This document shows, one piece after another, positions 18,064 through 45,793 of a stretch of DNA of 64,000 nucleotides; position 1 is the stretch's first letter, and every line of letters starts with the position of its first letter. The translations under genes were made by a program, and so were the position numbers. A model generated the notes under the pieces. That model searched no databases. It was given only the letters and a program-made list of their open reading frames with translations, and had not been told where the DNA came from. This DNA is from Chloranthus sessilifolius (lineage: Eukaryota > Streptophyta > Magnoliopsida > Chloranthales > Chloranthaceae): the NCBI GenBank assembly GCA_021018995.1, contig CM037597.1:9871299-9935298 (forward strand), read 5' to 3'.

Positions 18064-18165
18064 AGAAAAATACCCAGCGGGTCCCAACTCTAGCGTTATT
18101 TACCTGACAGGGTCCCTACTTCATGAAATAACCCAGTAGGGTCTGAGACCCTCAAACTTTTCAGT
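18064..18165 (+). repeat. Left terminal inverted repeat of the giant MULE
   Basis: Contains TACCCAGCGGGTCCCAACTC and ACTTCATGAAATAACCCAG, both found inverted at the right end. The spacer between the two blocks (about 26 bases) differs from the right end (about 14), so the repeat is imperfect. A second 'acctgacagggtccc' lies in the spacer and resembles 'acctgcaagggtccc' deeper in the right end. Confidence 0.7.
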
Positions 18166-20080
18166 TTGTGGGTTTTAACTTCAAATGAAGATGAAACGTA
18201 CGTAATAAAAGGGTAAAAAAGATAATATACGAAAAATATGAAATGACAAAAATGTCATCGTTTTAAATAAGCTGAAAAGTCATCGTTTTAAATAACGAAA
18301 ATGCTATCGTTATAAATAAAACGAGCGGGCATTCCTTCTTTCCTCTCATCTTCGTTTGAAACCCTTCTTCCCTCCCAAGGCATTGCAGTCCCTGTCGGAT
18401 CTCATCACCGTTGATAAAAGTTTGTCGGTCGCCGTTGCAATTGAAAGAAGACTTGAGGTCGAAAGAAGACTTGTAGAGAAACCCATAAAGGTCATTTAAA
18501 ATTTTTTCCCATTTGTAAAACTATAATTTTTAGGGTTTAGGGTTATGATTTTGGTTTGTTTCCATTTGTAAAACTCTAATCTTTAGGGTTTATAGTTATG
18601 ATTTTGGTTTTTGTGGAAATAAAGTAGAACCAACCAAGAGAAAAGGGAAAAAAAAAAAAAAATCCTCTGGTTGAATCTCTGAGTCATAGACTGCTTAGGT
18701 GATTATTTAGGCTTCTGTTATGCGATTGTGTTCATCGTGTCTTAGTTTAAATTTTATTCATTTTTTTCTAATTAAATTTTTTTCCCTTTTTTCTGTTTTA
18801 CTTCATCTGAAATTGAATTTACTGAGTTATGGATCCATGAATCGATTAGGTAAAAAATGATTATCTCATGTCTAATCCATTTTTTAGGTCTCGACGACTT
18901 ATATATCATAGTATTTTTTTTTTAGAATTTCAAGCTTTCAATAATCTATAATTAATATGTAATTTGTTTGTGTTATTTTAATTGGTAGTATGAAATTTAT
19001 TTGCATCAGTTTTATTTTTCAATTTTCGTTTTAGGGCATAAATGGACTATCATAAGTAGCTTTAATGATCTTAACTATCCCCCTTTTCACTCCCTAACTT
19101 CTGATATTACAGAGAAACTCATAATTAGGGTTTAGGGTTATGATTTTAGTTTATTTTCATTTACAAAACTCTAATTTTTAGGGTTTAGAGTTATGATCTT
19201 GGATTGTTGGAAATGAAATAGAGTTTACCCTAACTCGATACAAATAGGGACATTAATTTTATCATATTTTTATATTTTTTTAAACACTGATCTTTAGAGT
19301 TTAAGCTTATTTTTTTCTTTGTTCGTAAGTAATTATAAAAATTCATAAATTTTAGGGTTTGTATACTGTTATATATGGCGAATTATCTTTCTGACCTATA
19401 TTGTATAGATTGAATTATTTGTTTGAATCGAAATGTGATTTTTAATTTTTATAGAATATAAAACTATGATCTAGAAAATAAATTTTTTATTATTTATCAA
19501 TTTTGCATGTGTAAAGACATGCTTCCATTATACATTGATAAAAAAATTAGAACAATCATAGCAGTGGTAAGTCATGATAAGTCTTTTAGATCGTATCGTC
19601 CATTTATTAGTCAGTTGCTTCTCGATGACATGATGAGTCTTTTATAAGACCGTATTGTCTATTTATAAGTTAGGATCTTGTAGAAGACATAATCAGATCA
19701 GCCTTTTATAAGTCAGTATCTTCGTTAGACAGTTTCTTCTTTTAGACACGATCAGTTGTTTCTATATAAGATGCATCGTAGTTTGTATATAAGACTGTGA
19801 TGTCCTTTTGTTAGGTAGTGTCTTCTTTAAAACATGATTAGTGTCTTCTTTAAGATATTAGTGTTTAAGATTTTTTTTTTTCTTATTTGGCTTTTATATA
19901 AGACGCATCGTAGAAGTATGAAACAAAATATTAGGATCACCAATTAATTGTTTGTGGTTGTATTCTCCGTACCAATCCGAGTTGGATAATCCTTATATTT
20001 GTAGGCTTTACATGTAGTTGCGTTATGGGTACTGACACAATTATACTAGTATGTGGCTATAATGGGCTATTTAATCTTTA
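18166..20080 (+). promoter_or_regulatory. 5' region of the MULE with telo-box repeats
   Basis: Four copies of a unit of the form 'aaaactctaatttttaggg' plus 'tttagggttatgattttggtt' lie at about 18515-18560, 18561-18615, 19120-19165 and 19166-19205. Further AGGGTTT words lie near 19350. AAACCCTA-type telo-boxes are known promoter elements of plant translation and cell-cycle genes, so a promoter role for the transposase downstream is plausible but inferred. A block of 'gtcttttataagac' palindromic words follows at 19570-19910. No coding exon is recognised. Confidence 0.45.
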
Positions 20081-20175
20081 TTGAGTTGGATAATATCTTA
20101 TATATTAATATATGTAGGCTTCACATGCAGGTGCATTATGAGTATTGATATAGTTATACTAGTATGTCACTATAA
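19979..20175 (+). repeat. Tandem duplication of the transposase start region
   Basis: The ~90-base unit 'gagttggataat..gtaggctttacatgtag..ATG..attatactagtatgtggctataatgggct' (19979-20064) is repeated with changes at 20083-20175. Each copy holds a splice-acceptor-like 'gtaggct(t/c)acatg(t/c)ag', an ATG and the codons for I-L-V-C-x-Y-N-G. The gene therefore has two candidate starts; only the second leads into the open frame. Confidence 0.7.
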
Positions 20176-23100
20176 TGGACTATTGAAAGTTCAAAGAAAT
20201 AATATAATATATAGTGGCAGAAAATATAAACAAAAATCGATTAGCCAAGATGCAACATATAATGAATTTATTGGAAAGTTGTATGACTTGTGTAAGTCAA
20301 TATCGAAGCAAATAGATCTAAGGTTTAGATATAGATACCCGACTACCGAAGGGAGTTTTATTTTTGATATAGACAATGAGACCGACTATAATGACATGAT
20401 GACCCTATGCCCTATTGACTGTCCTCACATTGTCCTATATATTTCTGAAAAAACCGTAGAGTCAAAAAAGGTTAACGAGCATAAAAGAAAGAAAAGTCTG
20501 GAGACAGGAATGCTAGGGAGGTATGTGCTAGTAGATTAGAAGTAAATATAATTAAATTTGTTTAGTAGTCAAACATTCCATGCCTTTTGTTGCTTATTTG
20601 GTGGTGAAAAATCCGACGGCTCGCAGAGTAAAGGTGTTGGATGTAATAAACAACATAACCGCTACAATGAGAGGAAATGGAGACATTTAGGTAAGTCGAT
20701 GAAGTTATATGTCTGTTATTTAATATTAATTGAGAAATTATTAATAAGTTTTCTGATATATATTGATATGCTTTCGATCGTAGAATTACTCATGACCGCA
20801 TGTTTCCTAATTCAAGAGCACATCAAACTCACCGATCGCGCTATCAATCTGACCCACGATAGTGAGTCTTGTATATTATTTTTTATTTAGTTTGCAATTG
20901 TTTTCTTATACACATACTACTCAACCTCTTGCAATGCTTATGATTTAGTTTTTCGCCCCCTATTGTCGAAGAAAAACGTGAACGGAGTACCAGTTTTAGG
21001 TGGGTTTATCTCCCATTTCCTTTTTAAAAGGACGAGTTTTATTAATAAGGAATCGCATACTTTGGTTGATACTTATGAGTAATTTTATAGTTTCGAGCAT
21101 TCACGTCTATTTTCACATCCCCTCCCCGACACTCGTGTAGAGGATAAAGTAATTGAAGAGGAAAAAGTATATGAAGACTCAAATTCGATAAAAAATTTTC
21201 CGCCAATTCAGAGGCGACTATGAATTGAGTATGTGCATAATCATATGTAATATTATAGTCATATCTCACATATGAATGACACCTTGTATATCTATTTTAA
21301 TTGAAGGAACGAGAGTACTCCGCCATCGAGGACATGAGTTTCCAGTTCAGTTAGTACCCAGAATTACAGTATCGAGGAACTATCAGGAGACGATGAGATT
21401 ACTGAATATACGGGCTTAGATAACGACTCGAGTTATTCAGTTAGAGTGAGATTTCAGGGACGAATTATTGGGAATAAATTAAAATATGCAGACTTCGAAA
21501 TTAAAGATGATAGCTTGGAAGGAGGGAGTTTCGCAAGGAAGACGAGATTGGATAGGATTGGAAATACATCTTTGACTGTCAGAAATTTTTTTTCTTATCG
21601 AAAAGAATTTCTCACTACCTTGAAGAATAATATTGTGCTGGAAAACTTTCAATTGAAATCAATAAAGATAACTAAGAGGATTGTTGCTGCTAGATGTGCG
21701 GACAATATTTATCTATGGCGTATTCGCGCGAGTAGGGGCAACGTCGATGGCTATTCTTTCGTAATTAAAATAATGAATCCCAAACACAACCACAGTCCAC
21801 TTAGTGTAGCTATGCAAAAAAAGGAAGGTCATTGATAAGCCTCAAGTGATTGGGTAGCTTCTAAAATAATAAATATAATGAAGGATGCTACTGATTATAC
21901 GCCTGCCAAAATTATCTTTGAAATCTAAACAAATTGGGGGGTTATAATAAGTTATCGTAAAGTGTGGAAGGTGAAAGAGATAGCGTTGGCTAACATTAGG
22001 GGTGGTTGAGAGTCGTCTTATGCTATTCTCTCTTTGTATATTGCAAAATTGCATAGATCTTATCCCGACGCCTTCACGAAACTATAATGTTTGTATAATG
22101 ACTCATTCCTTAGATTTTTTTTGGCATTCATTCCCTCTATCGATGGATATAGAAGAACGTTGATGCCCATAATTTTGATTGACGGAACACACTCAAAAGG
22201 TAAATTTTTTTGCCCGATGCTAATTGCGAAAGGTGTCGACGGCAACAACGATTTGTTCCCCATTGCTTTTTACTATAGTTGATAGTGAAACAGAAGATGC
22301 TTGGGAATGGTTTCTTCGATGTCTTCGAGAAGCGATCATGGGTGATGATAGATCAATTGTCATAATTTTTGACCGTGCGGATGCAATTAGATTGACGGTT
22401 TCAAAAGTATTTTTCAATGCCACTCATAGGAGAAGTTTAGGAATCCGGCTTTGTGGAGTCAACTCTGGCCTATTGGTCGGGCATATACCGTAAAAGAACA
22501 TGATGACCTACTGACAAAACTTTAGGGTGTGAGCCCTGCTAGTGTAAAATATCTTCAACAGGGTGAACGATGGCGGTGGTCTAGAGCGCTCTTCCTTAAT
22601 CGTATATATGATCTTTTGACTACAAATATGTCTGAGTGTTTGAACAAAATCCTAGTTCATGCTAGAGGTCTATCAATAATAGCCCTTATTGAAACAACGA
22701 GGAAGAAAGTTGCCCAACTTTTTTATGACAGAGCTATAAAATGTCAGAAGTTGTTGAAGGGTTTAACCACATATGCATCTGATATCTTGGAAGAGGCTGA
22801 TGAAGCAGTTAGATTTTGTCAAGTTCTACCGTCATAACCCAATATTTTTGAGGTATCAACATCGACATTTAAGTATAATGTACATTTAGATAAGAGGTTT
22901 TATTCATGTCGATGTTTTAACGTTTTGGGCCTCCCTCGTATCCATGCGATGACTACCATTCATTAGATTAATGCAGATCCATCGATATATTATGAGGAAT
23001 GGCATAATGTTGCACGGTATTGCGAGACATACAGTAAGGCAATTGAATTGATTCTAGACGAATCTCAATGGCACGTCAAGCATGTTAGTCCTGTCGTTCA

Positions 23101-23263
23101 CCCGCCTCACTACAGGAACCCCTCAGGTCACCCAAAAAAAAGGAGGTTGAAATCCGTACTTGAGAAAAATAGAGAATGCATTGTACAACTTGTAAGTAGG
23201 AGGGACACAATTGTTCAACTTGTCAAGGACCATAGTTGGAAAAATGTAAAACTAAATAATTAA
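20081..23263 (+). pseudogene. MURA-like transposase (MULE), broken
   Basis: DDE transposase of Mutator-like elements. In order: a PB1-like N-terminal exon (20081-20539; VILVCHYNGLL, FRYRYP, DFDIDNETDY), which fits best with the ATG at 20138. Next come poorly conserved exons (20560-21420), then the MuDR DNA-binding region (21446-21835; ARCADNIYLWRI, NHSP). The MULE catalytic domain follows at 22120-22490, with ILIDGTHSKGKFF, GVDGNNDLFPIAF and, in the next frame, IVDSETEDAWEWFLRCL. Then come MSECLNKILVHAR (22629-22667) and a SWIM-type end at 22890-22960 reading RFYSCRCFNVLGLPRIHAM. The usual PC of the SWIM finger is PR here, so one zinc ligand is lost. Stops after 21833, around 21925 and near 22010, plus a frameshift near 22270, show it is dead. 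Domain order is that of typical plant MURA proteins (700-900 residues). Confidence 0.85.
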
Positions 23264-24650
23264 ATATGGTATGTAAGATACTTGTAATAAGTAGATTATT
23301 CAATCGTAACAATAGTGAGGAATGTATAAAATATCGGTAGACATTTATTTAATTAGTCCATAATATTTGTAAGAGGTTCTTTTATGTCTCATGTAAATTG
23401 CTTAACATGTCTCTCATCGGTCATTTAATATCATATTTACTTCTTAAACTTTGCTCATGTAGAGGACAAATAAAGTTTAAAGTGTTATTTTAACTCTTAT
23501 ATAAGTCCTTTATTATCTGACATCAACACTTTATTATCTCATATCAATTCTTACAATGTCATCGACTATTTTTGCTCTTACTTACTCATATGTCTGAAGG
23601 TTGATCTTATTTCAGATATCCAGGTCTCCTTAAAAAGTAAATTGAGAATGAAGAAATGCCTGAGGAAAGGCAAATGGGAAGTTGACGATAGACACAATCA
23701 TTGCACTTGACAAGGATCACGATAAAAAAAATATAGAAAGAAAATATCTAATTTTGCTAAGCCCTAAACTTGTTGTAATAAGTAGGGTATTGAATGAGAA
23801 AAGTGGTGAGGCATGTATAGAATATTGTAATAAGTATATTGTCGGATAATGTACAACTTCTCATTATACAACCACTGTATTTTGTAATGTTATTAGATAA
23901 TCTAGTTATTTTTTCCTCTGATGTGTAATATATATTGATCTCTGATGTGTATAATATGTGAATCAGATAACTTTAGCCATGCAGCTCAGAATGTAGTATA
24001 ATGCAGAAAAGGAGTAATATCAGTCCTGCACTAAAAAGCATCAGTACATTATTGTCTGATATCAGTCATGCACAGTCTCACATCTGTACATTATTGTCTG
24101 ATATCAATGCATGAATGGTCTCACATCAGTGCTTTACAGTATCTGTTAACTCATGCAGGACTGAATGTAGTTTAATTTTGAGAATGAGTCTGATGTCAGC
24201 CTTGCATCGACTCACATTAGTCATTATTGTCTAATATCAGTCTTATAATATTCTCACATTAGTCCTTTATAACTTTCAGATTACTCATGCAGGTTAGAAT
24301 GTAGTTTAATGCTGAAAAGGAGTTTGATATCTGCATTGATGAGCATCAATACTTTATTGTCTGATATCAGTCCTGCACTGTCACGTCAATACATTATTGT
24401 TTCATATCAGTCCTTGAATGATATCACATCAATAATTTATAGTATTTTATAACTCATGCAGGTCAGAATATAATTTTATGCTTAAATTGAGTCGAATATC
24501 AATCCTACAGTGTCTCACATTGGTATATTACTGTCTGATATCAGTCTTTTAATGTATTATAATATTTTATCTCGATCTCCTATTAGTCATCTAACATCTT
24601 CCAATCTTCTTATTTCAGATATTGAATTCTGATTTTTAGTTAATAAGAAA
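23264..24650 (+). repeat. Spacer with CTGATATCAG repeats and a duplicated gene start
   Basis: Between transposase and protease gene. A segment ending in codons for LRKGKWEVDD (about 23650-23690) duplicates the start of the protease gene (LRKGRWKVDE, 24670-24695). The 'cttgtaataagtag..attgtaataagt' stretch is also doubled (23281 and 23775). From about 23990 to 24560 the words 'tgtctgatatcagtcctgca', 'cacatcagtacattatt' and 'ctcatgcaggtcagaatgtagt' recur in rotation, at least four times each with changes. Confidence 0.65.
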
Positions 24651-25504
24651 ATGGCAAAACAGTTAAGAAAAGGCAGATGGAAAGTCGATGAGGATGAGAG
24701 ACAAGTTATCAAAGGTGTGATAAATTGTCGAAAATTGGTATGATGGTACTATCAATTAAGTAGTGACAGGAAAGAGCTCCTCCTCTCCTCAAGTTGTTTC
24801 CAATACTTATGGTTAATTAGCCAATTCCTCACGCAATCCGGGCAGCTTGTGTATGCTATTGGTAGAGGATTCGATTCGGAATAGGAGACTTTCACGATTG
24901 GAGAGTATGCTGTTCCTTTCCTCCGGACCGATGTGAGTAAGATTTTAGGTTTGAAAGTTGGGTCCCCTTCCGCATCAGAAATACCTTTAGTGCCGGCAGA
25001 TCCTGAGGGTGCTCCTACTTTTAGAGAACACTTATTTGGTAAAGTGGTAGCGGGGCAGCTGCTCATGAGGGATCTTCTTGAGTCAACCCTCACATCACCA
25101 AGCCTATCCGATGTAGACTTCTTCCGGCTCGAGAACTTATACATATTAGAGAACTTCTTTTTCCCCGACATTCACCACACGATCGATTGAGACTACATTG
25201 ATCTCATGAATGATCTTGGCATGTTCAATGGCGACAATTGGGGGGATATGGTTTACGCTTACTTGATCGATTTCATACATGCAACCACACGTTCTATTGG
25301 TGGTAAGAGGTATTATGTGCTAGGCTGCACTATTGTATTACATGTATGGGCGTTCGAGCATGTTTCTCAAATTTTATCGAGTAATGTAAAGAATGCATGT
25401 GACGAGTGGCCACTGCTCTTAAAATTTATGCCTCTAAAGATTTCGCGATTCGATGCAAATTTCTACTATCGGAAATTTCAGAAGTTCGAGGTACTATTCT
25501 ATGA

Positions 25505-25975
25505 ACAAGATGAGTACTAATATCAGACCATTAGAGGACTGATATCAGACATTTAATGTGTGCTATATTAGACCATTAGAGGACTGATATTAGACATCAA
25601 AGTTCTGATATCAGACATTTATCAGATATTTAATAAACTACTGATATCAGAGCATTAGGAGACTGATATAAGACATTTAATAATGTACTGACATCAGACC
25701 ATTATAGGACTAAAATAAGACATTTAATAAAATACTAATATTAGACCATTACTGAACTAATATCAGACATTTAATATTTGTGATATCAAACCATTAAAGG
25801 ATTGATATCTGACAATGGAGTTCTGATATGACACATTTATCACACATTTAATGAAATACTGATATCAGACCATTAGAGGACTGATATCAGACAAGCCTTA
25901 ATGTATTGATATCAGACCATTAGAAGACTGACCCTTGACATTTAATATAGTACTGATATACACATGTCTATTACT
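25505..25975 (+). repeat. CTGATATCAGAC repeat block in the Ulp1 gene spacer
   Basis: About ten rounds of 'atatcagaccattagaggactgatatcagacatttaat' with changes. The core CTGATATCAG is a perfect 10-base palindrome. It sits just after the DUF1985 stop and before the next exon, so it is probably intronic. The same core fills 23990-24560 and 44540-44830. Confidence 0.8.
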
Positions 25976-26398
25976 GTAGGTTGTCGCTGGAGATCTTGAA
26001 CCACCAAAGGGACCTGGACTTCATAAATCGAGCAGTCGAAAAAAAGTACCAAGGAAAAGAGACATAAAAGAAGAAGGAGATGATGAGAGTATAGATGGAG
26101 AAGGTAATGAGGAAGAGAAAAAACATGATGACGTCGATGAGTATAGCGTGCAGTCGAGATCGACTGTGGTTGGCATTGATTTTCAAGATTCTGAGGTAGA
26201 AAGAAGACTTCTTGCTAGAATTGAAACATTAGAAGTAGAGGCGAGGTCGAATCGGCCCCTTCTCGCGGTTGTTGAGAAGCAAGCTAAGTCGATCAAAATC
26301 CTCAAAAAATAGAATTTGATGCTGTTGAAACGTGTTATGTTTGTTGAGTCGAAATTAGAAAAAGGCGAGCGAACCGAGAATGAAAAGGGCAGAGATGG

Positions 26399-26740
26399 AG
26401 ATGAGACTAGAGGATGCAGAGAGTTTGAGAGAGATGGAGATGAGACTAGAGGATGCAGAGAGTTTGAGAGAGATGGAGATGATGAAGAAGAGAGTGAGGG
26501 CAGAGAGGGAGACGAGACTAGAGGAAGTAGAGAGATTGAGAGAGATGGAGATGACGAAGAAGAGAGAGTGGGAGAGGGCAACGAGGGAGATAAAATTAGA
26601 GGAAATAAAGAGTTTGAGAGAGATGGAGATGACCAAGAAGAGAGGGTGGGGGAGAGCAGAGAGGGAGATGACATTGGAGGAAATAAAGAGTTTGAGAAAG
26701 ATGGAGATGACCAAGGAGAGAGAGTGGGAGAGGGAGTTGA
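26399..26740 (+). repeat. In-frame tandem repeats encoding the coiled coil (39-bp and 78-bp units)
   Basis: Two 39-base units encode MEMRLEDAESLRE twice. They are followed by one 24-residue and two 26-residue units of the MEMTKKREWERATREIKLEE type with IKSLRE at the end. Unit lengths are multiples of three, so frame is kept. As a side effect, two other frames on each strand also stay open, giving artefactual long ORFs (26316-26819 plus, 26183-26714 minus). Confidence 0.85.
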
Positions 26741-28388
26741 TAATGCGACAACCGAAGTTGAAGAGAGAGGAGAAGCTAGTGCGAGTATTGAAGGAGAGCC
26801 GATATTTATTTCGAATTAAATGTACTTGCCCATGTAGTCCTTTATCTACTTTTACGCGATATTGTCATGTATCCATAACGCTTACTGACCCTTCAGTAAC
26901 ATTGGGATTTATTTAACTATAGGTTTCAATGAAAAGGGCACGTTCAGCTGAGCTCAGCCTTGCTCAGCAGCATCCGATACGGGAGGAAAGGCGTAAGCGA
27001 CATGACCACCTTGTCCGTTGAAAGGCTGAGGACTAAGCTAAAAAAATAAAGGGAAGTAAAGCAGAAGTTGGGAAAAGCGTCTATAGTTATCGAGAAGCAG
27101 AAGGAAATATTTTCATCAGACTGCCCCTCATTAGATGAGGCACAACTAACTAGCTGCTAAAATTTGGCGGAAAATTGATGAAGCGAACAAGATGGAAGAT
27201 ATGATGGAAGAGGGTAGATATGAGTTTGTCTCTTTCTTTTAGGGCTTGTCGGACACAGCTGATAAGTAATATATCTTACTTAAGCAAGTCAATATTTAAT
27301 TTACCATTTATCTGTTGATAATCCTCTCATAAATATGATAATCAGTGTAATTTACAGATTCATGGTGTCTAAGGTTGAGGAGCTCCAGATAAGTCTTGCC
27401 CTTATTAAAAGTCTTAGGCCCAATCAGGAGGTGGAGGATGATGTGCTCAATGCATTGATAATGGATCTATACTGTAAACACAATTCACATACTGTGTACA
27501 TTCTACCGATTATATTTACGGTGAGCACTCATCTCGCACACTCATTTCCTTGAGTCCTACAAGTTGTGACTGGTAATCATTAAATGAGTGTATTTTAATA
27601 CAAAAATTATTCAAGGAGGAAGTCCTGAAATTTGAGGAGGCTCAAAAAAATGACTCGATATATCATATCATTAATGAAGAGCGATAAAAAATTACTGTTT
27701 AAGAGGGAGATGAAAGGTTTCATCATTCTTGCCTTCCCTTCCTCAGCAAGCCCTCCTTCAAACATGTGGTTGCCTGTTGTGCAACGGTAACTGTAATTTA
27801 TTCTTTGGAAGAAATTTATTATTCACTATTTATATAATTAGTATTCTATAATATGAGTGACCTATCGCTAATCACAGCTTAGATATTACATCTATAGGTT
27901 TTAATTCCGTTACACAACGAAAATGGCTCCCACTATGTGTTAGCGAGCGTCGACCTTAAAGAGAAAGCAATTTTACTACAAGACTTATCGGCGAAACTAG
28001 TTTTAAGCATGTAGAAAAATTACACACATGCCTTGGTAAGCAAATAAGTGGGTCATTTATTCTATTAATCTATTTCTCATATATAGGTTATGTACTTTAC
28101 GTTTATGTACTCGTTTTCATTCGGACCTCCTATCTCCTGCGGCTTCTATACTTGAATGGAAAGGAGGATGCGCTCGATAAAGCTCTACCATGGCTAGTAT
28201 CCTTCAGAAAAGATCGCACAAAATAATATCGAGGATCGGTGGACTGTGCACTATTCGTTCTTAAATACGCCGAAGACATAATGGTCGGGGGAGAAGGTAA
28301 GTTCCAGCTTGGAGCCAAAGAGACAGTTTCTTTCCGAACGCAATGTGTGTCAGATATTTTAATATACCAGGCTCAAACACGTCAATAG

Positions 28389-33342: not shown

Positions 33343-35849
33343 TACCCCCAAACCTACACTTTGCTAGTCCTCGAGCAAAGCAAACTAAAGAAAATAAATG
33401 CCACTTTCGTAGGGAACACGATTGCACTTAGCATGTGCAACAAGCCTTTAAACCCCTAGGTGATCCTAGTGGAGGAGTTGTGTCTCCTGAGGGTTTACAG
33501 TGAAGCTACCCACAAACTTCAATATATTTTTGAAATCATCGATAAAATTGAGTTTTCAAAACATGATTTTGATAACATATATACCATTCAAAAACAAAAA
33601 TCATTAATCAATTCAACATGCTAATTCTCAATTTTAAATAACAATGTTATACTAATCATACTAATATCCATTCAAATTAGTCTAATGCTCAAATCGTTAG
33701 ATAGCTCATCCATTCATGCCTAAACGAGAAGTGTGCATAACCAAACCAAAATTCATTCATCTAACTAATTCAAACGGAAAACCGTTGGATGTTGTTTTGA
33801 CTCAATCCTCACTTTAGGTATACTCTCAAAATATAAAGACAATAGTGGATAAGTTTTCACACATATGTGAGAGGTCAATACAAAGCAAATAAAAGGTCTC
33901 ACATGATAAATGAAACACGATGTAATCAATGAACAAAAATAAATCTCATAAGAAGATACTTGTATATCCTAAGCATGTCATATCAAGTGTCATAAGTATC
34001 ACATATTTACTCTCCACAAGGCAGTTACTAATGCAAGATCAGATCATGAAGGTCTTTTTAGGGTTGTAATGGGGCTCAGGAAAGGGTAAGAAAGAATTGG
34101 AAGTTGATTCAAAGTTTCTGAGAAATTGGAAAAGAAACAACCTTTTTTCTCTATTTCTCTTCTTTTGTTTTCTACTCTCTCACTATTTTTCTCAATTTTT
34201 TTCTATTTTTCTCAACTTTCTTTTTCTCTTCCTTTTTCTTGAAGCACCTCAGATTTTTCATTATTTTTCACAATTTTCTTTTTCTTTTTCTCTCCCCTTT
34301 TTCTTTTTATTTTTGCCATACACTCTCAGTAAACACCACAACTCAGTATCTCTCCACTTACTCTCTTTTCGTTCACTCTCATCCTTCGCTCAATTTCTCG
34401 TAAATAAGAAGGGTAAAGTGAATTTTCAGAAATGGTGAAGGGTTAAAGGTTAACGTGGCTTATCAAAGAATGTATAAAGGTAAATTTTTTCAATAGGCTC
34501 AAAGGGGTACTAGAAAGATAAATTTATTTGAGGTGGGGCATTTTAAGCACAAACGAGCCAAAGATGGCCTTCAATCATATCCTTAAAAGATAGTAACTTT
34601 GCCTATTTGTCTTGAGTAGATATACAGTACATTCTAACATAATGATATAAATTTGATTTCATGCAAAGTCACAAGTCAAAATGAAGTGTATGAGATTATG
34701 CAAAATAAGTCGTATTCAAAGAAAACTCGGTTTTATATATTCACTCATCAATGACGGAAATTAGCTCTAAAGCTCACCGGGTTTAGTCTCCACTAAGAAC
34801 CTAAGATTCACATTCAAAACAGTTCATCGATTTCTAAGTCTTAGCTTGGTATCAGTGTAAAAAGTCTAAGCATGAATATCAAAATTATCCACAACATATC
34901 ACATTAAGCTTCATCATCTTAGATACAAGTAATCAAAATATGACACTATTATTCTCAAAATTAAATTCACATGCATCATCAACTAAAGTTTGAAAACAAT
35001 CGTAAAATAATGTGCATGATGACTTCAAAAATCAAAATTTTTTTATTTTTTTTTTTTCAAATAAAACAAATAAATGTAAAATAATTAACCATACCCCCAA
35101 ACCTAAAGATGACAATGTCCTCATTGGTGAAAAGAAGTAGCGCACCCCAAACTGTTTGAAAAAGTACCTCAACACAAAGATCAAAAAGTAGAGAATATAT
35201 GCATCAAATCGGAACATGACAAAAAATATATTGAAGGGAATATGGTTACACTATTTAGGGAAAGAAAAACAACCTAAACTAAACAAAACAAAACAAAAAG
35301 GAAAGAAGAAAAAACTAAAAAAACTTAAAACCTAAATCCTAAACTAAACATGAATCCAACTCTGTTAATCATTGGCAGGCGGACCCATCCACCTCGGGTC
35401 ACTTAAATTGATATTCTTAGGCACAGGGAACAATTTCTCCCACAGATCAAGGGAAAATTGATGAGACACCGTCGAATGTATGGATGGAGGTGGAGAGGCG
35501 AAAGTAGGAGATGAAGATGGGGGAGACGGTGACGGCATCACATCAATTATCTCGATATCAGTATTGATGCACGGTGTAGGAGATTTGGAGCGATTTACCT
35601 TCTTTCGAGATGGTTCTCCCCAGTAAGGAATGATCATCGGATCGAGGTCGATGATTTCAACATTGATTGGCACAAAAGGGACCGTCCGATGAGAGCAGCG
35701 CTCCTGCTTTTTAGCAGGCTCCTCCATCTTCGATAATCGTGCTCTGGTAAGATATAATCGCCGGGTCATAAGAAAGATTGTGCAGAGTGAATGAAAAGTG
35801 AGCCTAAAGGTGAATATAAAGGGAAAAATATAGAGTTATCGACTCCAAA

Positions 35850-35880
<31 letters not shown>

Positions 35881-35973
35881 GTCGATTAATCGATCCCTAA
35901 AGGTCGAATCGACCCTTTGAAGTCGATTAATTCGATTGATCGACAGTGGAGGTCGATGCATCGACTCCAAAAA

Positions 35974-36004
<31 letters not shown>

Positions 36005-36399
36005 GGGGTCGATTAATCGATCCAAAAGGTCGATGCATCGCCCCTTTGGGGGTGGATTAATCGGGGTCGATTCATCGACCTCCTAAAAAAATGGTTTTTT
36101 TTTTTCGCAAAAAGTGGGTCGATTAATCGAGTATAACCCTCGATTAAGCGACACCATCTTGGCAGAGAGTTGAAAATTTGAAAAAAAAATGGCATTGTAA
36201 TGGTGCTATTCAACCTCTCTAAAGGCATGGTAATTTGCAAAATTGCTCCCACAGTTAGAAAACACACTTTTTCATTGATAAAGACGAAGATTACATGGAC
36301 ACTTCTGATTTGACTCCTAAAATAAACAGCCTAAACAAAAGAAAGAAAAAACACAAAACGAAAAGAAAATCCTAATCCTAGACTACGAATCAAACTAAT

Positions 36400-37500
36400 C
36401 ATCTCCATCCTCCTCGGCGGCGCCGCATCTCATCATAACTATCGCCATCGCCACATCGCCCCCGATGGAGGAAGGAACGATCATAGTGGCTACGCGCAGA
36501 GTGCACCATGATGTCCTTCGCTCCTCTTGTAAAGAGGTAATTTGGGCTTGGAGCCAAGCGACACACCCTCCTGGGTCCTTGATCGGTGCATGTTGGTCAT
36601 CCCGGGCCAGTGGGGCGTGGGGGAGCGATTGGATGCATCGGCAGGGGCATGGGACATTTCAAGAGACGACATCGCGGTTCCATTGCACCATAACGATAAA
36701 ATGCAAGGTCCCGATATCATCATCCGGTAGAACGGAAACGAAGAAAATTAAGCAACTTCATAACATAATGGGGGAAGTAGACCAACGGGGCTTCACCAGT
36801 GGTAGGTATAGTGAGTTCGTCATGGCATTGCCACATGCCATCATGAATAATCATGGGCACGTTGATCCATGAATTGCGGTGGGCCCCATAAAGTGCTTAA
36901 ACCCGATCAATGCGCTCGAAACGTACGGGGACAAAGATTACTCGACCACACTATCCCAAAACAAAAGCTGGCAACGCCGACGCCTAGTGGCGATCGAAAG
37001 AAAATATGCACATCTCGTTGATTATATCCTCGAGACTCGTCGAGTTCCTCACCCAAAATGTGATTGTGAGGGCGCCGCGAAACATTAAAGACCTCCGCAA
37101 TGGTGTGCGGAAAATCGCGCGACCACCCATCAATTGCAAGCGTGAAGTGGGCGCGACTTGATTCTCGATGAGGCGGCACCCATGCCATATTCGATAGAAT
37201 AACCGAACAATGCGTTGGACACTTTGATCACGGGTGGAGTGAGGAGAAATGGGCATTGAGCGCCATCCAGGCGTAGGGAAGCGGCGCAGATGGCGGTGCT
37301 TGAAAAGCCGAGATCAAAACATATTCGGAACACAGTCGCGTCGCTGGCGACCACTTGGTCGATCACGTGGATGACCACGAGGCGTTGTACAAGTCTTTCT
37401 TGGCGGCGGGTGAAGCCATGATTGCCTGTCGGAATGCCGAGGATCGGAAAAAAACAAACTCAATGAAAAACGTGGTGATGCTCCATTTAAATAGCGCCCT
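36400..37500. other. GC-richer interior block of the LTR element, not recognised
   Basis: This block is clearly more GC-rich than its surroundings and holds several overlapping short frames on both strands (for example 36465-36872 plus, 37314-37667 minus). None shows a motif I recognise. The many open frames may only reflect base composition. It could be the remnant of a captured gene or of a non-canonical ORF of the family. Confidence 0.35.
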
Positions 37501-38069
37501 CTCTGGAGACGGACATCGAAATAATCGATTAATCGACCAAAAGTGTCGATTAATTCGACTCTATTGAAAAGAGGCGCGTCAGAAGTCCCGACGCATGGAA
37601 AACACGCAACGTCTTTAAGTGAAAAGACGCAACGTACGGAAGTGGAAAAGTCGATTAATCGACGCACTTACTCGATTAATCGGCGTAAGGCAAATCAAAA
37701 CCAAAAGCGCGTCCGAATAAAGTCGATTAATCGACTCATAAAGATTAATCGATTAACACAAATAAAACAAAACGATGATTTTAAAAAACAATACGATTTT
37801 CAAAATAGGATGCATCGACTCAAAAGTCGATTAATCGACTAAAGAAAAAGTCAAATACCATAAATGCGGTGTCCTTGAAAAAGGACCTTTGCATTAAGAC
37901 TCTCGATTAATCGACCAAAAGTCGATTAATCGAACTATGGGTCGATGCATCAAATTTTTTTTTTTTTTTTTTCAAACATAGGGTCGATTAATCGAACCCT
38001 AAAGGTCGATGCATCGACCCTTTGGGGGTCGATTAATCGACAGAGGGGTCGATTCATCGACCTCCTAAA

Positions 38070-38122
<53 letters not shown>

Positions 38123-38424
38123 TAAAAAAAAAAAAAAAATGAAATTAATCTAGAAGGTGTAAATTCATTCCGAGTCCACCAGGATCCCAAATCTTAATGA
38201 AAAATTTTCTAAGGTGATCGTGATTTATTTAATCGTCTCAGATTTCACTTTTGAGGACTTAGTTACACCCTCATGGTGTGCCCAAGTGCCACCATTATGA
38301 TCCATTTCTACCTTGACATTCCCAAAATCACACTTGATTCAAACCCATGAATCTTTTTTCACATTCTGATTATCTATGTATTCGAATGACATGATTGAAA
38401 TTCCTCTTCTTCCCTAAACCGAAT

Positions 38425-39090
38425 TCACATCGAAAAAGTTATGTTTCCCTTATCAGGTGTTGTAAGGGTGACATTTTCCTTCTCTTTCATCTCAATTTGA
38501 TTCTCAACTCCCTCCTCGACATAAGTATCGTTCCATTCCATTTCCTCTTCTCCTTGCACTTGCACTACCTCAACGCTCGTTATGCCATTCTCAAGCGTAG
38601 GGACCAATTGGTCATCCTCATATTTTTGAATAAAATCAGATGAGTCCTCTTGAAGATATTCATGATTCTGATCGGTATCAATGAGACTCCTTTCAACTTT
38701 CCTTTGTAAGTACTCGATCATCTGACTAACTTGAGATTGTATCTTAGAAATTCTTTGAGTATTGGTGTGCACCAAACCTTTTAAATATTCTAAGGAGTAA
38801 GAAGAATTTTGGGCTGGTTCATATGAGTTTGTGTCTTGAAAGTATTGAGTTTGCTGTGAAAACTCATAAGGAAATTTGTTGGGATAAGAATTTTGATCAT
38901 TGTATCATATCACATTAGAGGTTGATTAAAACCCACATGTCATTAGATTGACTCGCGGTCATGAGTGTTCCAAACCGGATTTGGTTGGGCTTGTTCAGGG
39001 TAATAATTTGAATTATTCAAGGGACACATAGGTGAAATGTGCATCGAATTTCCACAAATAGCACATGATTTTAGATTGAATCCCTGCATT
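38425..39090 (-). pseudogene. gag-like remnant with CCHC zinc knuckle in the LTR element
   Basis: On the minus strand a short frame near 39080-38940 carries CAICGNSMHISPMC, a C-x2-C-x4-H-x4-C zinc knuckle typical of gag. Further on (38775-38425) is a helical and acidic segment (TQRISKIQSQVSQMIEYLQR, then an E/D-rich tail), as seen downstream of the knuckle in plant Tat/Athila gag proteins. It is a remnant with no pol following. Another short frame, Pro/Ser-rich, lies at 35769-35365. Confidence 0.6.
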
Positions 39091-39390
39091 GACAAGACTT
39101 CACCCAAAAACTTTTTTTTTTTTTTTTTTTAAATTGATTAATCGTCGATCAATCGAGGCTAACTCGATGCATCGACAGTGTGGGTCGATGCATCGATTTT
39201 CAAATTTTTTTTTTTTTTTTTTTTTAATTAAAATTTTTAAATTTGAAATTTCCGAAATTTTTTTTTTTTTTTTTTAAAAAAAATTAATTAAGCAGAAATA
39301 CTATTTTAATCCTCGAAAATTCCTAAAATTGATTGTCTACCAAAAATTCAGATTTTCTAAATTTAATCCCCGGCAACGGCGCCAAAAACT

Positions 39391-41171
39391 TGATGTGATA
39401 TTTTAATGTAATGTTTTACTCGCAAGTGCACGAATCAGTTTGTATATAGTGGGTGCGGAGTACGAGATCGTTCCCACGAGGACTAATTTTGAACTATCTA
39501 AAAGAGACAAGTAATTCTAGAAATCTATTAAGATCTAACAGTAATCTACCAATTTTATGATTTAAGCGGTTGATGAGATGGTAATTAATTACTACAAACT
39601 AAAATTCAATTGATAATTCACAAATAAAAGTAAAGATGATGATAAAGATGAAGATACTAAATCCTCCCATCTTTGGTCCGTTCTTCCTATAATATAAATC
39701 TAAGAATTAAATTATGAGATATTTCATTGATAACAAATATCTTTTATGGAAGATCAATGGTCAACACCCTAATAGGTTCCATGTTGCATCCCTGCCATTA
39801 GGACTTAGATGATTTTCATATATAGATCTGGGATCGAGTGCTAGACACGCATGATCTCAGGTTCAAATAAAAACCATCCCCAAAGTGGGTGAAAATTCTA
39901 ACAAGAATACCACTTACAAATCTGAAATCAAGGGCATGGCTCGGCACACTTTATTCAGATTAGGGATATTTAAGATAAAATTACCATTACAGAACCAAGA
40001 TCCAGGCATGGCTCGCACACTCGATCCAACATAATCGTAATTAAATCCACACTCTAAAATACAAAGACCATAACAATGATAGGGTAAAATTACCGCCACA
40101 GATCGAGATCCGGGCATGACTCCTACACACGCGATCCCGGTTAATGGCGGGGATTTCATCCATTCATGATAGCACAACAACCATAAATTAAAAATCTCAT
40201 ATTTTAATCCCTAATTTTATATTATTAAAAGTACATCCCTCGGATGGGAATCATTAGATCCCCATCTCTATAAATTTAGCCACACATATTGTAAGGAATT
40301 GACGTAAATAAATAAAGACGGGAAAATAACATTAATTAAAATTACCTCAAGCTTCAAAATAAATTACGTTGATCCACACGGATGATAATCTTCAGAAACG
40401 AAGTAAATGCAGGAAATAAACTTTGAACAAAATTTAGGAATGAATACTGAAAAATTAAATAACAAAGCTCTCAAAAAGAAATAATAAAACTTCCTATTTC
40501 TATGAAAAATAATGGCTAAAAACTAAGAACACTAAAAACTAAAACTCTCTCCTAAATTTAATTCCTACGTAATTCTAATGCTGAAAAGATCTCTAAAATT
40601 AATCTCCTCTTTTAAAGTGTTTGAGTCTTTAAATAGAACCGTCAGGGTATCCTAAGCCTTTTTAGGGTCGATTAATCGACTAATATGTCGATGCATCGAT
40701 GACAAAACTTCCACAAAATCACATTTCCAGTGTCGAATCGTGTCGACTGCAATTCGCTCGATTAATCGACTCAGAGGGTCGATCGACATCGAAATCCGTG
40801 AAAATCAGCATTTCTTGTGGTTCAGACACTACTTCGGTAGTTCGGCCATAACTTTCTATCCCGAACTCGGATTGCGATGATTTGTGCGCCGTTGGAAAGC
40901 TGACGAAAAGATCTACAACTTTCATGTTTTGACAATTTTGTAATTCTGCCGTCTTGAAGGTCCAAATTTAGCCGCAAGTCGCACCAAGTTCTTGATTACC
41001 CGAAATTGCAGTGTTTTGGCATTATATTCAGAATTCTTGTACTGTTTTCTATACTTGGCTCATATTTACCTGAAACACTTCAAATCTAATCAATCTTATC
41101 AGATAGCCTTCATCGGACAGCTAAATATAGGTATTTAGGGGTGAAATATCCTCATTTTTCAGTACTCATCA
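39391..41171 (-). repeat. Right (5') LTR of the nested retrotransposon
   Basis: 1781 bases, the partner of 31533-33342. The primer site lies immediately inside, at about 39368-39386. It shares the palindromic words near 40665-40790. Confidence 0.92.
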
Positions 41172-42569
41172 ATCGTTATCTCGTTTCTTCACCAAGATAA
41201 AGTATGCGTCAATGGCCTATAAAAATAAAGTCACATATCACCCTAATAGACACTAATAAAGATATGTACTTTCCAAAAAAATAGGATCATCAGACTGACT
41301 GACATCAGACGACCTATGGATATCAGACGAATGACTTTATGAATTTCTGCATGTGTGCCTTTGAAAATATTAGCCTTACCTCACTGCCAAGCCAATTAGT
41401 ATCGTAAACTGAGAACAAGTTCTCCATGATGGACAGTTTATCAGTCATGTGAATCTCACGTCTGCAAAGCCAGGTAGGTTGGTAAGAGAAGAATTGAATT
41501 AAGTTAACTATAACTCAATAATTTTCAAAGGGGCGAAACCCTAATCCACGGATCCATTATTAAGAGTTTTATTTATTTCATATTTATTATTCTGTATTAG
41601 TGGTTTCATAGAAACCGTCGTAGTCTTTCTGTGGATAGGGCAAACATATGAATTAACAAATGTTCAATTAAATTTAACATATATGTTTTAACCTTTACAT
41701 TAGCTAATTGAACATTCACCTTCAGCGCATTCTTTGGAGGTAGTCTCTTGGTTGTATTTCTCACACCGATCCTTCTTCTCTGCGACCTTTCCTGCATGTA
41801 TATTCTACGATTAAATATGTTGAAAACTTATACTCTTAAAAACATAAAAGTTATTAATTTCACAATTTGTAGAGATTATCTTTACTTTCTCTCCTGAGTT
41901 ACTTTTGAGGGTTCGTTTATTACCCACTGTGGAGGTACATGTGTTTGAGGGTGGACATTCGAAAGATTGACCTTGTCGAGTTGTTTAGCATGTTGAAGTC
42001 TTCGGTGGTAATGGGGTTTGCGAAGAACTCTCGAATTTATTTAATAATGTCATTTGCGGAGTAACTCGGCCTATTAAATTAGCCTACACTCGCTTATAAG
42101 TATCCATTACGCCCACCGGCCTTATTTCTCTTTCGCCAAATGGTTCATTTTTATTGTTATCAGATATTAATGTAACTTTAGTTTCCTCTATAGATTCTTC
42201 TCTTATCTCCCCGACAAATTCTCTATCATCGTCTTGTTTCATGGACGTTTGATCGGCTAGCATCTCTGAAACTCGCATAATTTCATCGGTAAGAACAACG
42301 AAAGACATGTGTTCTTCATTATCTATATTAGCGATTCTTCCTCATCTTCTTTCAAGGATGCATGTATCCGATGATCATCCTTTTTGACTTTGAATGATTC
42401 ACGAGGCAATTCACTCTCATCTTCTACAAATGTTTCTTTACGATTTCTCTTCCCATTATTGATTATCTTAGAAGCATGACTCGTTCCATCAGTATAGGGT
42501 CAATAGTGATCGACTCTACTTTCATGGGCATACATGCATTTGGACTAGCCTTATTTCGTTTACAAGTAT

Positions 42570-42745
42570 CACGTGGGACTTGCTCTTTTTTCTTGCCCTT
42601 CACGTTACTATCTAAAGGGTCTTGTAATTTTTCTTTGCCCTTCACATCACTATCCCGAGGGACTTGCACTTTTGCCTTGCCTTCACTTCCCTACCCTGAG
42701 AGACTTGCACTTTTTCCTTGCCTTTAACTTTCCTATCCCTCAGTG
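42570..42745 (-). repeat. ~42-bp tandem repeat in the minus-strand Ulp1 gene
   Basis: About four imperfect 42-43 base units ('ttgcccttcacatcactatc' then 'cgagggacttgcactttt'). On the minus strand they encode 14-residue Lys-rich units such as KVQVPRDSDVKGKE and KLQDPLDSNVKGKK. It parallels the coiled-coil repeats of the plus-strand copy, though the sequence is unrelated. Confidence 0.7.
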
Positions 42746-44099
42746 GGTTAGTTGGAGAGCTTATATTTTTCGAGTGATTCTTTTTAGTAAAACTACTCAT
42801 TCTTTTCGCATCTTTATTGCAATTGAGAGAGGATTTGAAATAATACTCTTTACGTTGGCCTTGTTTTGCAAAAGTAACCTAACAGTTATATTTTCAAGAC
42901 ATTCTAACAAATAACAAAAATTTCTATTAAATATCTTACCTTCAAAATTGTTATCTCTAACTCTAATAATTTTAGGCCCTCTCTTAGATCACTGTTTAAT
43001 TTCTTCTATCTTCGCACTTAATGAACAAGTTTATTGTTAGACTTCTCCAACGCTGTGATGCGATTACCTTGTTCTTTGGAAGACATTTCTAGGAGTTAAA
43101 GACGATTGAATTCACAACCAACATAATCACTAATCCTATTCTGGATCACATCTTCTAATAATTCATGATCACTGAATTCAAAATTTGAAATTATCTGTGG
43201 ATATATTACCAGAAGGGTGAGAGCAAGTTATCAAAAGAAGCGACTTCTTAATTTACTCATAGCTATAACATGAAATTGGTTGAGACTGAAGCCAATAATA
43301 CCTTCGGATTATTAAGTTCCGCAAGGTAATACTTCCGATGATAACTTTTTACAGAGGTATACTTTGTGTATCTTAAAAAATCATTGATAATTGAAGTCGG
43401 CGCTATAGTCAGGAAGTGCTCGCATGCCTAAATCTAAAATAAATCACAAACTAAAAATTTGTTAGGAAATATGTATATTATGCGACAAACGGTGTACAAA
43501 TTGATAACGTTTGCAAAGACAATAGCTAGCCTGTAATGTAAAGGTACATCCATCAAGATTGATATACACACCGCTCCTCTTAAAATTTAAAGCGACAGAT
43601 CGAAGAGAGTTTAACAAACATGTATGAGTAACTCGTCCCCATGTAATTCTGTTAAAGTACTTAATATTATAGACTAATCTCACGTACATCTATTCAATTG
43701 TCTTAGAGTTATTCGGTATCATGAAAGTTGCAAGAATATGCAATAATGTGAGACGGGTAAAATCAATTCACCGACACTAATACTCTTTACCCGACCAAAA
43801 TATTTCATACAAAATAAATTAATATTTTCATTTTAAACATTCAAACCTTCCCCTAGAGTTTCAAAGATAATTCTAACATGCTTAAGACCAAGTAAAACAG
43901 ACATTTCTAGTAAGGGAAAACCAACAGTACGCCCACCAATGGAAAACCTCTCAGACTCATAATTAAAATTTTCAATTAATATGTATATCAGCTCGTTGAT
44001 TGTAGGAATATCTATTAGATGAAGAAGAGACTTCACTGCAGTTGAACTAAGAGCTTCAAGCTCCACAGGCGATAATGCAACTATAAGGGTAGAACATAT

Positions 44100-45704
44100 A
44101 ATTTTATCCTCGTGTGTACAATTTATGAGATTACATCATAATTAAATTTATGAATATGGGCCAGAAAGTTTTCAAAAAAATACATGTATTTATAATATAT
44201 CATGAGTGAATTCAGCCACAAGACCGATCTTACACAAATATGACATCTTTAAAGACTACGAGAGTCTTATAACTGACCTAACACAATTTTTACAAAAAAT
44301 TAATAAATATACTTGCAACAATAAACATATTTTTCTAATATAAACTGCCATTTTTTAAAAAATTAATGACATTAAAAGTTTGCCGAGTGACAAAGTATAA
44401 GAAGGAAATGATCTTATATGAGATTAGATGATCTTATATAAGACGAAAATAGTCTTATATGTGCCCCCTATAAATAAGATAAATAGGGGGTAGTTGGGAC
44501 CACGGTAGGTTATTATTTCTAAAAATAAATCATTCATTATTACAAAGGTTAATATGAATCGATAAAGTACTGATGTGACAGCATCAAAGAACTGATATGA
44601 ATAAATAATAACCGATCGTATTCAACATTAAACTATATTCTGATATGTATGAGTAATCTGATGTGAGATAGTGCAGGACTGATATCAGACTCATATTCAA
44701 CATTAAACTACATTATGATATGCATGATTAATCTGAATCTATAAATTACTGATGTGAGAACATTAAATGACTGGTATCAGATAATAAAGTACTGATGTAA
44801 GACAGTACACGACTGATATCAGACTTATTATGACTCATTAAACTACATTCTAACCTATATGAGTAATCTAAAAAGTTTAGGGCGAGATTACTACATTTCT
44901 ATCTACCACAAAAGTTAAGCATTTATGACAATATTACTATATTAATACAAAGGTTAAGCATTTAGAGCAGGATTACTATATTTCTATCTACCATAAACAA
45001 GTCATTCATTAAAACAAAGAATCAGTATTTAAGACAGCATTACTATATCTGTATATAACTCAAACAAGTTATTCATTAAAATAAAGGTTGAGCATTTTTG
45101 ACACCATTACTACATTAATACAATTGTTAAGCATTTAGGGCAGGATTACTACATTTTTATCTACCACAAATAACTCATTCATTAAAACAAAGAATCAATA
45201 TTTAAGACAACATTACTACATTTGTATATAACTCAAACAAACCATTCATTAAAATAAATGTTGAGCATTTAGGGCAGCATTACTACAATACTGCTTTATG
45301 AGTTGTTCTTATGAGTTTACCGGATGGCTGGAGATATACACGCAGAAAAGTTTAGATGTATGTGATGTGGAGAAGATGAAACGTTGGCAGAACCGAAGGT
45401 TTGTAGAGACGATAGCAGCAGACTTCTCCCTATTTATTCGTCAGCAGAAAAGAAGATGAAACGAAGAGAGGGGGGCTATATGGGATCCTAATGCTATCTT
45501 TACAGGAAGAAGATGAAGATAAGAGAAAACCCAGTCATTGGTAAGAAGAAGATGATAAGCTAACCGCAAAATACCAATATTTTTGGCTCGTATGGAAAGA
45601 TGAGTATTTTAGTAAATTTTTGTTAGGGTATTTTAGTTCTCTAAATATTAACTTAAATTAACAAAATAGACATGTGCAAAAATTTGGGACCCTTGCAGGT
45701 AAAT
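44100..45704. repeat. Right subterminal MULE region with several repeat families
   Basis: 44540-44830 repeats 'actgatatcagac', 'aactacattctgatatgcatgag' and 'aagtactgatgtgagacag', related to the CTGATATCAG blocks on the left side of the MULE. 44880-45290 is a tandem array of about 60-120 base units built from 'gttaagcatttagggcaggattactac' and 'cattcattaaaacaaagaatcaatatttaagaca'. 45300-45700 has no recognised gene. Confidence 0.65.
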
Positions 45705-45793
45705 AATAAAATAAAGTTTAGGGTCAAGACTTTGCTGGGTCATTTCATGAAGTTGGGTAGATTAGAAAGAGTTGGGACCCGACTGGGTAATCC
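45705..45793 (-). repeat. Right terminal inverted repeat of the giant MULE
   Basis: Read on the minus strand from 45789: TACCCAGTCGGGTCCCAACTC, then ACTTCATGAAATGACCCAG, then TCTTGACCCTAAACTT. This mirrors 18071-18165 in order and orientation. Outside it lies ACCCAATTCAAAA at 45794-45806. Confidence 0.7.

Follow-up and report, generated by a model that had tools for sequence, protein, structure and literature searches.

We describe here a large Mutator-like element (MULE) of Chloranthus sessilifolius, located within a 64,000-nucleotide stretch of contig CM037597.1 (positions 9,871,299 to 9,935,298 of the forward strand; hereafter the window, part of contig C14), in which a transposase gene, two genes for Ulp1-like proteins (UlpA and UlpB), and an open reading frame (ORF) with GRF zinc fingers (GRF) lie between terminal inverted repeats (TIRs). 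That these four genes form one inherited unit, a TIR MULE of the MuDR type, is hardly in doubt. Because the element has the anatomy of VANC systems, namely a DUF1985 protein with peptide repeats and arrays of a short motif in noncoding DNA, it is also fairly probable that it is VANC-like and that its two DUF1985-Ulp1 genes are of the anti-silencing type, the anti-silencing itself being what we infer from this anatomy. The features of the element, in window coordinates, are as follows.

18055..18063, left copy of the 9-bp target site duplication, AATTCAAAA
18064..18160, plus strand, left TIR; the family form starts GAGAAAAATACCC, the first G of which is absent in the window copy
20108..23260, plus strand, MuDR-type transposase with PB1-like, MuDR DNA-binding, and MULE DDE domains
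23978..24555, array 1, 5' of UlpA; imperfect repeats with periods of 21, 42, and 134, rich in CTGATATCAG
24651..28385, plus strand, UlpA; DUF1985/plant-mobile-like N-terminus at 24714-25502, acidic peptide repeats at 26391-26734, divergent Ulp1/C48 peptidase at 27284-28385
25512..25965, array 2, within a UlpA intron; CTGATATCAG repeats in units of 21-22, 47, and 218 bp
29921..30445, minus strand, GRF ORF, whose majority frame encodes 174 aa with a CCHC zinc knuckle and two GRF zinc fingers
30752..31420, minus strand, C-terminal exons of UlpB; SENP-like peptidase with His, Asp, Gln, and Cys
31533..41171, nested long terminal repeat (LTR) retrotransposon, not part of the MULE; it splits UlpB, and its LTRs are 95.4% identical
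41609..44135, minus strand, N-terminal part of UlpB; DUF1985-like exon at 43836-44135, peptide repeats at about 42567-42740
44557..44873, array 3, 5' of UlpB; repeats of the array 1 type in inverted orientation, 77% complementary to array 1
44908..45287, array 4, between array 3 and the right end; repeats of 39, 67, and 173 bp without the palindrome, with units containing GATTACTACA
45700..45797, minus strand, right TIR, finishing ...GGGTAATCCACCC
45798..45806, right copy of the 9-bp target site duplication, AATTCAAAA

The four genes are linked throughout the genome

The 2.17 Gb genome was searched with each end of the element, and the 40 best-scored places (window included) were taken from 324 left and 272 right candidates. 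For 21 of the 40 scored left ends a facing right end lies within 150 kb, the spacings running from 17.2 to 86.5 kb; a single end pair is wrongly oriented. Nine whole copies besides that in the window (seven and two more) were compared, and the transposase, UlpA, GRF, and UlpB have identical order and orientation in all nine (9/9); among 22 exon queries the sole misses are a 15-residue one (in copies C8a, C13a, and C13b) and one UlpB exon (in C15a). One locus (L013-L015, C4:76179531-76203941) is a chimeric copy with an extra right-end fragment just beyond its own right end and another left end 38 kb off in facing orientation; no target duplication was seen there.

Linkage of the four modules was also evident in genome searches with single exons, in which the best 150 scored matches were kept from 3346 transposase, 2474 UlpA, 438 GRF, and 1581 UlpB candidates, the resulting counts being lower bounds. 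The UlpB DUF1985 exon lies in the expected position within 10 kb of 81 of the 150 GRF matches, against 0, 0, and 0 in three wrong geometries, and within 60 kb of 94, against 7, 0, and 0. The transposase is similarly placed within 10 kb of 47/150 GRF matches (0, 0, and 0 in wrong geometries) and within 60 kb of 79 (4, 1, and 3). At least one partner is in the expected place for 134 of the 150 UlpA matches, when the transposase is sought within 40 kb, GRF within 60 kb, and UlpB within 100 kb, and partners in wrong geometry number 6, 10, and 7 of 150. Among these best 150 UlpA matches there are at least 40 complete four-module clusters, that of the window included, and the cargo is therefore a fixed part of the family. 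A preliminary description of this DNA, made from the letters alone, had placed four coding modules inside the element and asked whether related copies hold them in the same order; MULE DDE, C48, and GRF exons are indeed there, and the order is kept in 9/9 whole copies and at least 40 clusters. Relatives were also looked for in viral contigs, where none of 44 pattern matches was confirmed.

Eight copies (that of the window and seven others) were aligned and are 87.6-91.7% identical, each differing by 5.6-7.1% from the majority sequence, and their tree is almost star-like; these similar distances and the near star-like tree suggest one old burst. With exon limits set by hand, stops number 1 to 13 per gene in every one of these eight copies, for all four genes, and none of the eight is intact. 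The majority frames contain 0-4 stops, compared to 5-73 in other frames.

Termini and target site duplications

The MULE spans 18064-45797 of the window and is 18,090 bases long once the nested retrotransposon is set aside, bearing out the earlier proposal of a single MULE of about 18 kb. The inverted ends, described previously as matching and degenerate, are 73% identical in inverted orientation over 91 aligned columns (E=1e-9), and of seven other copies searched, five have a left end that pairs with the right end of the same copy at 78-82% over 90-91 columns, and C7a and C10a show no such match at the same threshold; TIRs of about 90 bp with 73-82% identity are thus present in the window copy and 5/7 others.

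The sequence ACCCAATTCAAAA occurs exactly at 18051-18063 and at 45794-45806, as had been noted, with one further site in the window carrying one mismatch; 0.46 matches are expected by chance in the window. It had been read as a 13-bp duplication with the element ending at 45793. The left end stands, but comparison of copies shows that the family usually terminates on the right in ...CCACCC, so that the ACCC at 45794-45797 belongs to the element itself; the right end is therefore 4 bp further out, at 45797, and the repeat consists of the 9-bp duplication AATTCAAAA and four element bases. We judged the duplications by eye in the flanks of 19 of the 21 end pairs (C2:117.4 and C14:32.7 were left out). 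An exact 9-bp duplication is present in 11/19 pairs, although in C10a a few extra bases separate it from the terminus; eight of nine bases agree in 4/19, the duplication is degenerate in two (C15a and C13:102.2), and none was found in 2/19 (C4a and C1:60.9). The duplicated sequence differs between insertion sites, one per insertion, and the direct repeat is not a dispersed repeat. At least eight of nine bases are thus duplicated in 15/19 pairs, and MULE target duplications are 8-11 bp long (PMC6446971; here and below the published sources are cited from the excerpts available). The family has been mobile in the past.

The encoded proteins

Pfam was run on single window exons and on majority-rule exons of the copies. 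The transposase exons (about 20129-20440, 21338-22490, 22526-22834, and 22967-23260) are broken by stops in the window copy, and the majority exons identify the DDE transposase of a MULE (MULE 1.2e-13, DBD_Tnp_Mut 3.8e-10), together with PB1 at 6e-4, below its cut-off. The D, D, and E positions, which would form the catalytic triad, are readable in the copies.

UlpA and UlpB are convergent in the window, their peptidase domains span introns, and both carry a C48 domain on majority exons, in agreement with the two convergent Ulp1-like proteases first described. The start and exon edges of UlpA were placed by hand, and its ATG is present in 6/8 copies. Its majority exons match C48 at 7.5e-10 and PMD at 1.4e-5 (below the curated cut-off), single window exons match only weakly (PMD 0.07, C48 0.19), and similarity to SENP1 is marginal (0.038). 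For UlpB, C48 is found at 4.4e-18 with the majority exons and at 1.4e-6 with the lone window exon, and comparison with human SENP2 (1tgz; 9.3e-16) places His, Asp, Gln, and Cys in register; His is kept in 7/8 copies, Asp in 6/8, Gln in 7/7 readable copies, and Cys in 6/8. The His-Asp-Gln-Cys site of a SUMO protease is present in UlpB only, as UlpA departs from it at Gln in 8/8 copies. The UlpB N-terminus is 32% identical to the DUF1985 region of UlpA over 85 aa (BLASTP, E 3e-8), and with both halves related (3e-8 and 6e-4) UlpA and UlpB are, as judged by these alignments, diverged paralogs. At 23474-23707 on the plus strand there is an ORF piece, MKKCLRKGKWEVDD..., resembling the UlpA start, MAKRLRKGKWKVDE..., as if array 1 and the first UlpA exon had been duplicated upstream.

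The GRF ORF has three stops in the window copy. Its majority frame matches Zn_ribbon_GRF at 2.9e-16 in two stretches, so that the double GRF zinc finger reported earlier holds, and zf-CCHC at 7e-4, just below the cut-off. The stops of both UlpB and GRF are present in 8/8 copies, and GRF is therefore a separate ORF.

Palindromic motif arrays adjoin both Ulp1 genes

The motif CTGATATCAG is a 10-bp palindrome, and its halves, CTGATATCA and TGATATCAG, occur 16-30 times per element where 0.28-0.62 are expected. All 23 occurrences of these halves in the window fall inside the element, most of them in arrays 1-3, and the motif is found in all three array regions of 10/10 copies. Array 1 finishes about 95 bp ahead of the UlpA start codon. 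The intron containing array 2 has the acceptor TTACTGTAG in 8/8 copies and a GT donor in 7/8. Array lengths vary among copies, from 277 to 735 bp for array 1 and from 352 to 582 bp for array 2. Array 4 was found in the seven copies compared.

Eleven further elements were sampled at UlpA, and ten of these have 9-41 motif occurrences, the eleventh having an insertion that replaces array 1. The 2.17 Gb contain 216 instances of the paired palindrome CTGATATCAG-N9..20-CTGATATCAG and 0 of its reversed control; among the matches listed, which were grouped by hand into 21 loci, 18 loci are within 10 kb of a scored module and one is between transposase and GRF matches. Motif spacings cluster at 21-23 and 42 bp. 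A candidate for motif switching at C10:42.72 Mb, which lacks CTGATATCA close to UlpA and carries a different palindrome in a 20-bp array, was rejected because homology ends abruptly at the UlpA exon, indicating that an insertion displaced the array. The insertion upstream of UlpA at L060 (C10:42722500-42725700) holds a 20-bp array of AATCGATCGAACGATT-like units.

Two subfamilies differ in UlpA

Two subfamilies were compared, g1 with eight copies and g2 with seven elements, the latter left from eight that were chosen by low UlpA identity; the one at C15:20.82 Mb (61%) was dropped before counting, since its exon is nearer to g1 and, unlike the others, it has array 2. The UlpA protein of g2 is 63-69% identical to that of the window, while its transposase exons (77-83%), UlpB (74-82%), and GRF (70-77%) resemble those of the window to the same extent as other copies do. 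Majority DNA sequences of g1 and g2 differ by 2.9% in the transposase, 1.0% in UlpB C48, 5.0% in UlpB DUF1985, and 4.4% in GRF, compared to 13.1% in UlpA, and synonymous differences are similarly concentrated in UlpA (37/144 versus 36/556 pooled elsewhere, p=1e-9). Subfamily g2 is recovered as one clade in all three trees (support 100 each), and its stem branch has a length of 0.134 for UlpA versus 0.015 for the transposase and 0.033 for GRF-UlpB. Because acceleration of protein change would not by itself elevate the synonymous differences, we infer that UlpA was probably replaced by recombination in the g2 ancestor. At three g2 loci the upstream array matches g1 array 1 at 64-76% and g1 array 3 at 73-82%, which weakly suggests that the array came along with the replaced UlpA.

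Past purifying selection on UlpA, UlpB, and GRF is seen in the raw ratio of nonsynonymous to synonymous rates (dN/dS) between g1 and g2, which is 0.36 for UlpA (Fisher p 1.8e-6), 0.24 for GRF (5.4e-4), and 0.22 for UlpB (1.4e-3). The transposase gives about 0.55, which is not significant (Fisher p 0.084). Controls in the two shifted frames cover UlpA (1.0 and 1.3), GRF (1.0 and 2.3), and the transposase (1.3 and 0.59); the last of these values is as low as that of the coding frame (0.54 in the same comparison), and selection on the transposase is therefore not shown. For pairs of copies within the family the UlpA exon has a mean dN/dS of 0.50 versus 0.72 and 0.85 in shifted frames, the only hint of selection at that level. 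A candidate signal for GRF within the family (singleton/shared test, p=0.034 in the coding frame) was rejected, as the shifted-frame controls give 0.0045 and 0.021.

Nested retrotransposon and flanking DNA

The retrotransposon within UlpB is flanked by a 5-bp duplication, ATCGT, and its site is empty in 7/7 copies compared by DNA. TCGAT-type repeats occur in it as well as in the L060 insertion, and an LTR-like stretch at 52218-53995 is 81-82% identical to its LTRs. To the right of the MULE an open DUF247 ORF of 557 aa (46196-47869, minus strand; Pfam 1e-94) has its stop approximately 400 bp from the right end, and to the left an inverted repeat of about 1.1 kb (6130-7223 / 16890-17922, 80% identical) ends approximately 140 bp from the element.

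A putative anti-silencing system and its alternatives

In the mechanism that we consider most likely, the transposase would cut and reinsert the element, making the 9-bp duplication, while UlpA and/or UlpB could bind the CTGATATCAG arrays, both those 5' of the two Ulp1 genes and the one within the UlpA intron, and when bound there might strip silent chromatin from their own element. The SENP-like peptidase of UlpB may remove SUMO from a silencing factor, and single-stranded DNA or RNA is the probable ligand of the CCHC/double-GRF protein, either in transposition or in the evasion of small RNAs. A bolder version, which we regard as a tentative idea and doubt in its full form, is a duplicated and partly divided anti-silencing system, in which UlpA would read the motif, UlpB would remove SUMO, and GRF would be a third fixed component, with a UlpA-plus-array cassette swapped by recombination while the transposase and protease stay near constant.

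Several observations weigh against an anti-silencing role. The DUF1985 match (PF09331) of the UlpA majority exons, at 1.7e-6, scores 28.5 bits against a cut-off of 35.1, and Pfam recognizes nothing in the UlpB N-terminus with either window or majority exons. At the presumed oxyanion Gln position of UlpA, placed with the SENP1 alignment, there is Arg, Tyr, or His in 8/8 copies, and a stop lies one codon ahead of it in 6/8; the UlpA peptidase looks impaired. Ordinary promoter repeats could account for the arrays. In the all-pairs periodogram the peak is near 11.5 rather than 10.5, so that helical phasing of the motifs is not established, two of the 21 paired-palindrome loci among the matches listed are near no scored module, and no palindrome array is found 5' of the transposase. 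The motif is identical in both subfamilies in spite of the 13% difference in UlpA, with no sign of switching. Finally, a sliding-window analysis of dN/dS within the family gave scattered matches on both strands and no clear signal, and the copies are mostly neutral relics.

The strongest alternative, although we think it unlikely, is that the Ulp1 and GRF genes serve transposition itself, with the proteases taking SUMO off either the transposase or a repair factor of the host, single strands being protected by the GRF/CCHC protein, and the arrays acting only as promoters. The canonical SENP-like active site retained by UlpB would suit such a role, as would the promoter-like distance between array 1 and the UlpA start codon, and the GRF protein combines a CCHC knuckle with two fingers of a nucleic-acid-binding type. 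However, array 2 is intronic, array lengths vary strongly, and the UlpA peptidase site looks degenerate, so that UlpA probably does not act by catalysis. Moreover, DUF1985 and motif arrays are common to VANC systems, whose effect, according to the excerpts available, is anti-silencing (PMC5735166; PMC10398659).

The longest inverted repeat of the element is that between array 1 and array 3 (24054-24220 / 44658-44824, 77%), and because it encloses the cargo one could imagine a composite, in which a second transposon nested at 23.5-44.9 kb, with the inverted repeats as its bounds, carries both Ulp1 genes inside a plain MULE. The much greater divergence of UlpA between subfamilies than of the remainder would fit this arrangement, but we consider it improbable: the same gene order is common to all nine other whole copies, none of which shows an empty site, and the inverted repeats are arrays of variable number that also occur in an intron as well as 5' of each Ulp1 gene.

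Least probable by far is Pack-MULE-type hitchhiking of functionless host ULP and GRF gene fragments since, although MULEs frequently capture host genes and ULP regions occur in several distantly related MULE families and five grapevine CACTA families (PMC2528002), Pack-MULEs carry fragments without a transposase, whereas here the transposase accompanies the other modules in 9/9 copies and all four recur in at least 40 clusters, with majority frames of 0-4 stops versus 5-73 elsewhere and purifying selection between g1 and g2 on UlpA, UlpB, and GRF.

The preliminary description had read the cargo as a toolkit for the SUMO pathway and for binding single-stranded nucleic acids rather than as a hitchhiked gene fragment. 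The latter judgment survives, since the majority frames are near stop-free and dN/dS is 0.22-0.55 (significant for UlpA, UlpB, and GRF). In place of the toolkit we prefer an anti-silencing system of the VANC/Kaonashi type, because the Ulp1 genes encode DUF1985-C48 proteins with peptide repeats and adjoining motif arrays.

Comparison with known systems

Maize MuDR is a TIR MULE with MuDR transposase domains and 9-bp duplications, all of which are shared by the element described here. It differs from MuDR in its Ulp1, DUF1985, and GRF genes, and Pfam recognized no mudrB-like gene, no direct comparison with mudrB having been made. Our literature search found, in the excerpts available, no MULE combining a pair of DUF1985-Ulp1 genes with a GRF gene, a key study of eudicot VANC systems lying outside its coverage. 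Eudicot VANC systems are said by Sasaki et al. (EMBO J, 2022) to gain and lose DUF1985, DUF287, and Ulp1, and that work may describe such elements.

Neither the 18-kb size nor the Ulp1 cargo is new in itself, as a family of similar size is known among grapevine MULEs and Ulp1 genes occur both there and in Kaonashi/KIU. Grapevine Mutavine-1 (MUDRAVI1) is 17.7 kb long with a TIR of 70 bp and 43 copies with a good transposase match, and the ULP regions of grapevine MULEs lie in both orientations (PMC2528002). Our element is like Mutavine-1 in size and TIRs, although the comparison is by description, from excerpts, and the two may or may not be of the same kind. In Kaonashi (KI/KIU), a non-TIR element, the Ulp1 gene is one of three genes and opposes the transposase (PMC2528002), as UlpB does here on the minus strand with its C48 domain; unlike Kaonashi, the present element has TIRs and two Ulp1 genes. 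Ulp1-bearing VANC genes have been named KIU/Kaonashi, and the role of the Ulp1 domain in VANC-type proteins is stated to be unknown (PMC13317346).

The closest parallels, as far as the excerpts go, are with the VANDAL elements of Arabidopsis, in which VANC-type anti-silencing was elucidated and whose VANC proteins bind motifs and induce loss of methylation (PMC5735166; PMC10398659); VANC is a DUF1985 protein with tandem peptide motifs, and its targets are noncoding tandem repeats that include one in the VANC intron (PMC5735166). Like VANDAL21/Hiun and VANDAL6, the element is a MULE with a transposase and accessory genes, including a DUF1985 protein with peptide motifs (here the tandem repeats of UlpA at 26391-26734 and of UlpB at about 42567-42740), where DUF1985 falls below the Pfam cut-off in UlpA and is recognized in UlpB only via similarity to UlpA. 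As with VANDAL/VANC, noncoding DNA, an intron of the DUF1985 gene among it, holds arrays of a short motif, and such tandem arrays are present in elements across the family. The motif here is CTGATATCAG, and those of VANDAL elements are YAGTATTAY or AGTTGTCC/AGTTGTAC. Unlike VANDAL/VANC, DUF287 gave no Pfam match in the segments scanned. Compared by description, further differences from VANDAL are the two DUF1985-type genes with Ulp1 domains, the CCHC/double-GRF gene, the clear TIRs, and the length of 18 kb. The cassette-like divergence of UlpA suggests that anti-silencing systems change by module exchange besides gradual coevolution. With two DUF1985-Ulp1 genes, one SENP-like and one apparently impaired, and a defined palindrome, this VANC-like element makes the question of the Ulp1 domain directly testable, namely which gene binds and which needs its own peptidase.

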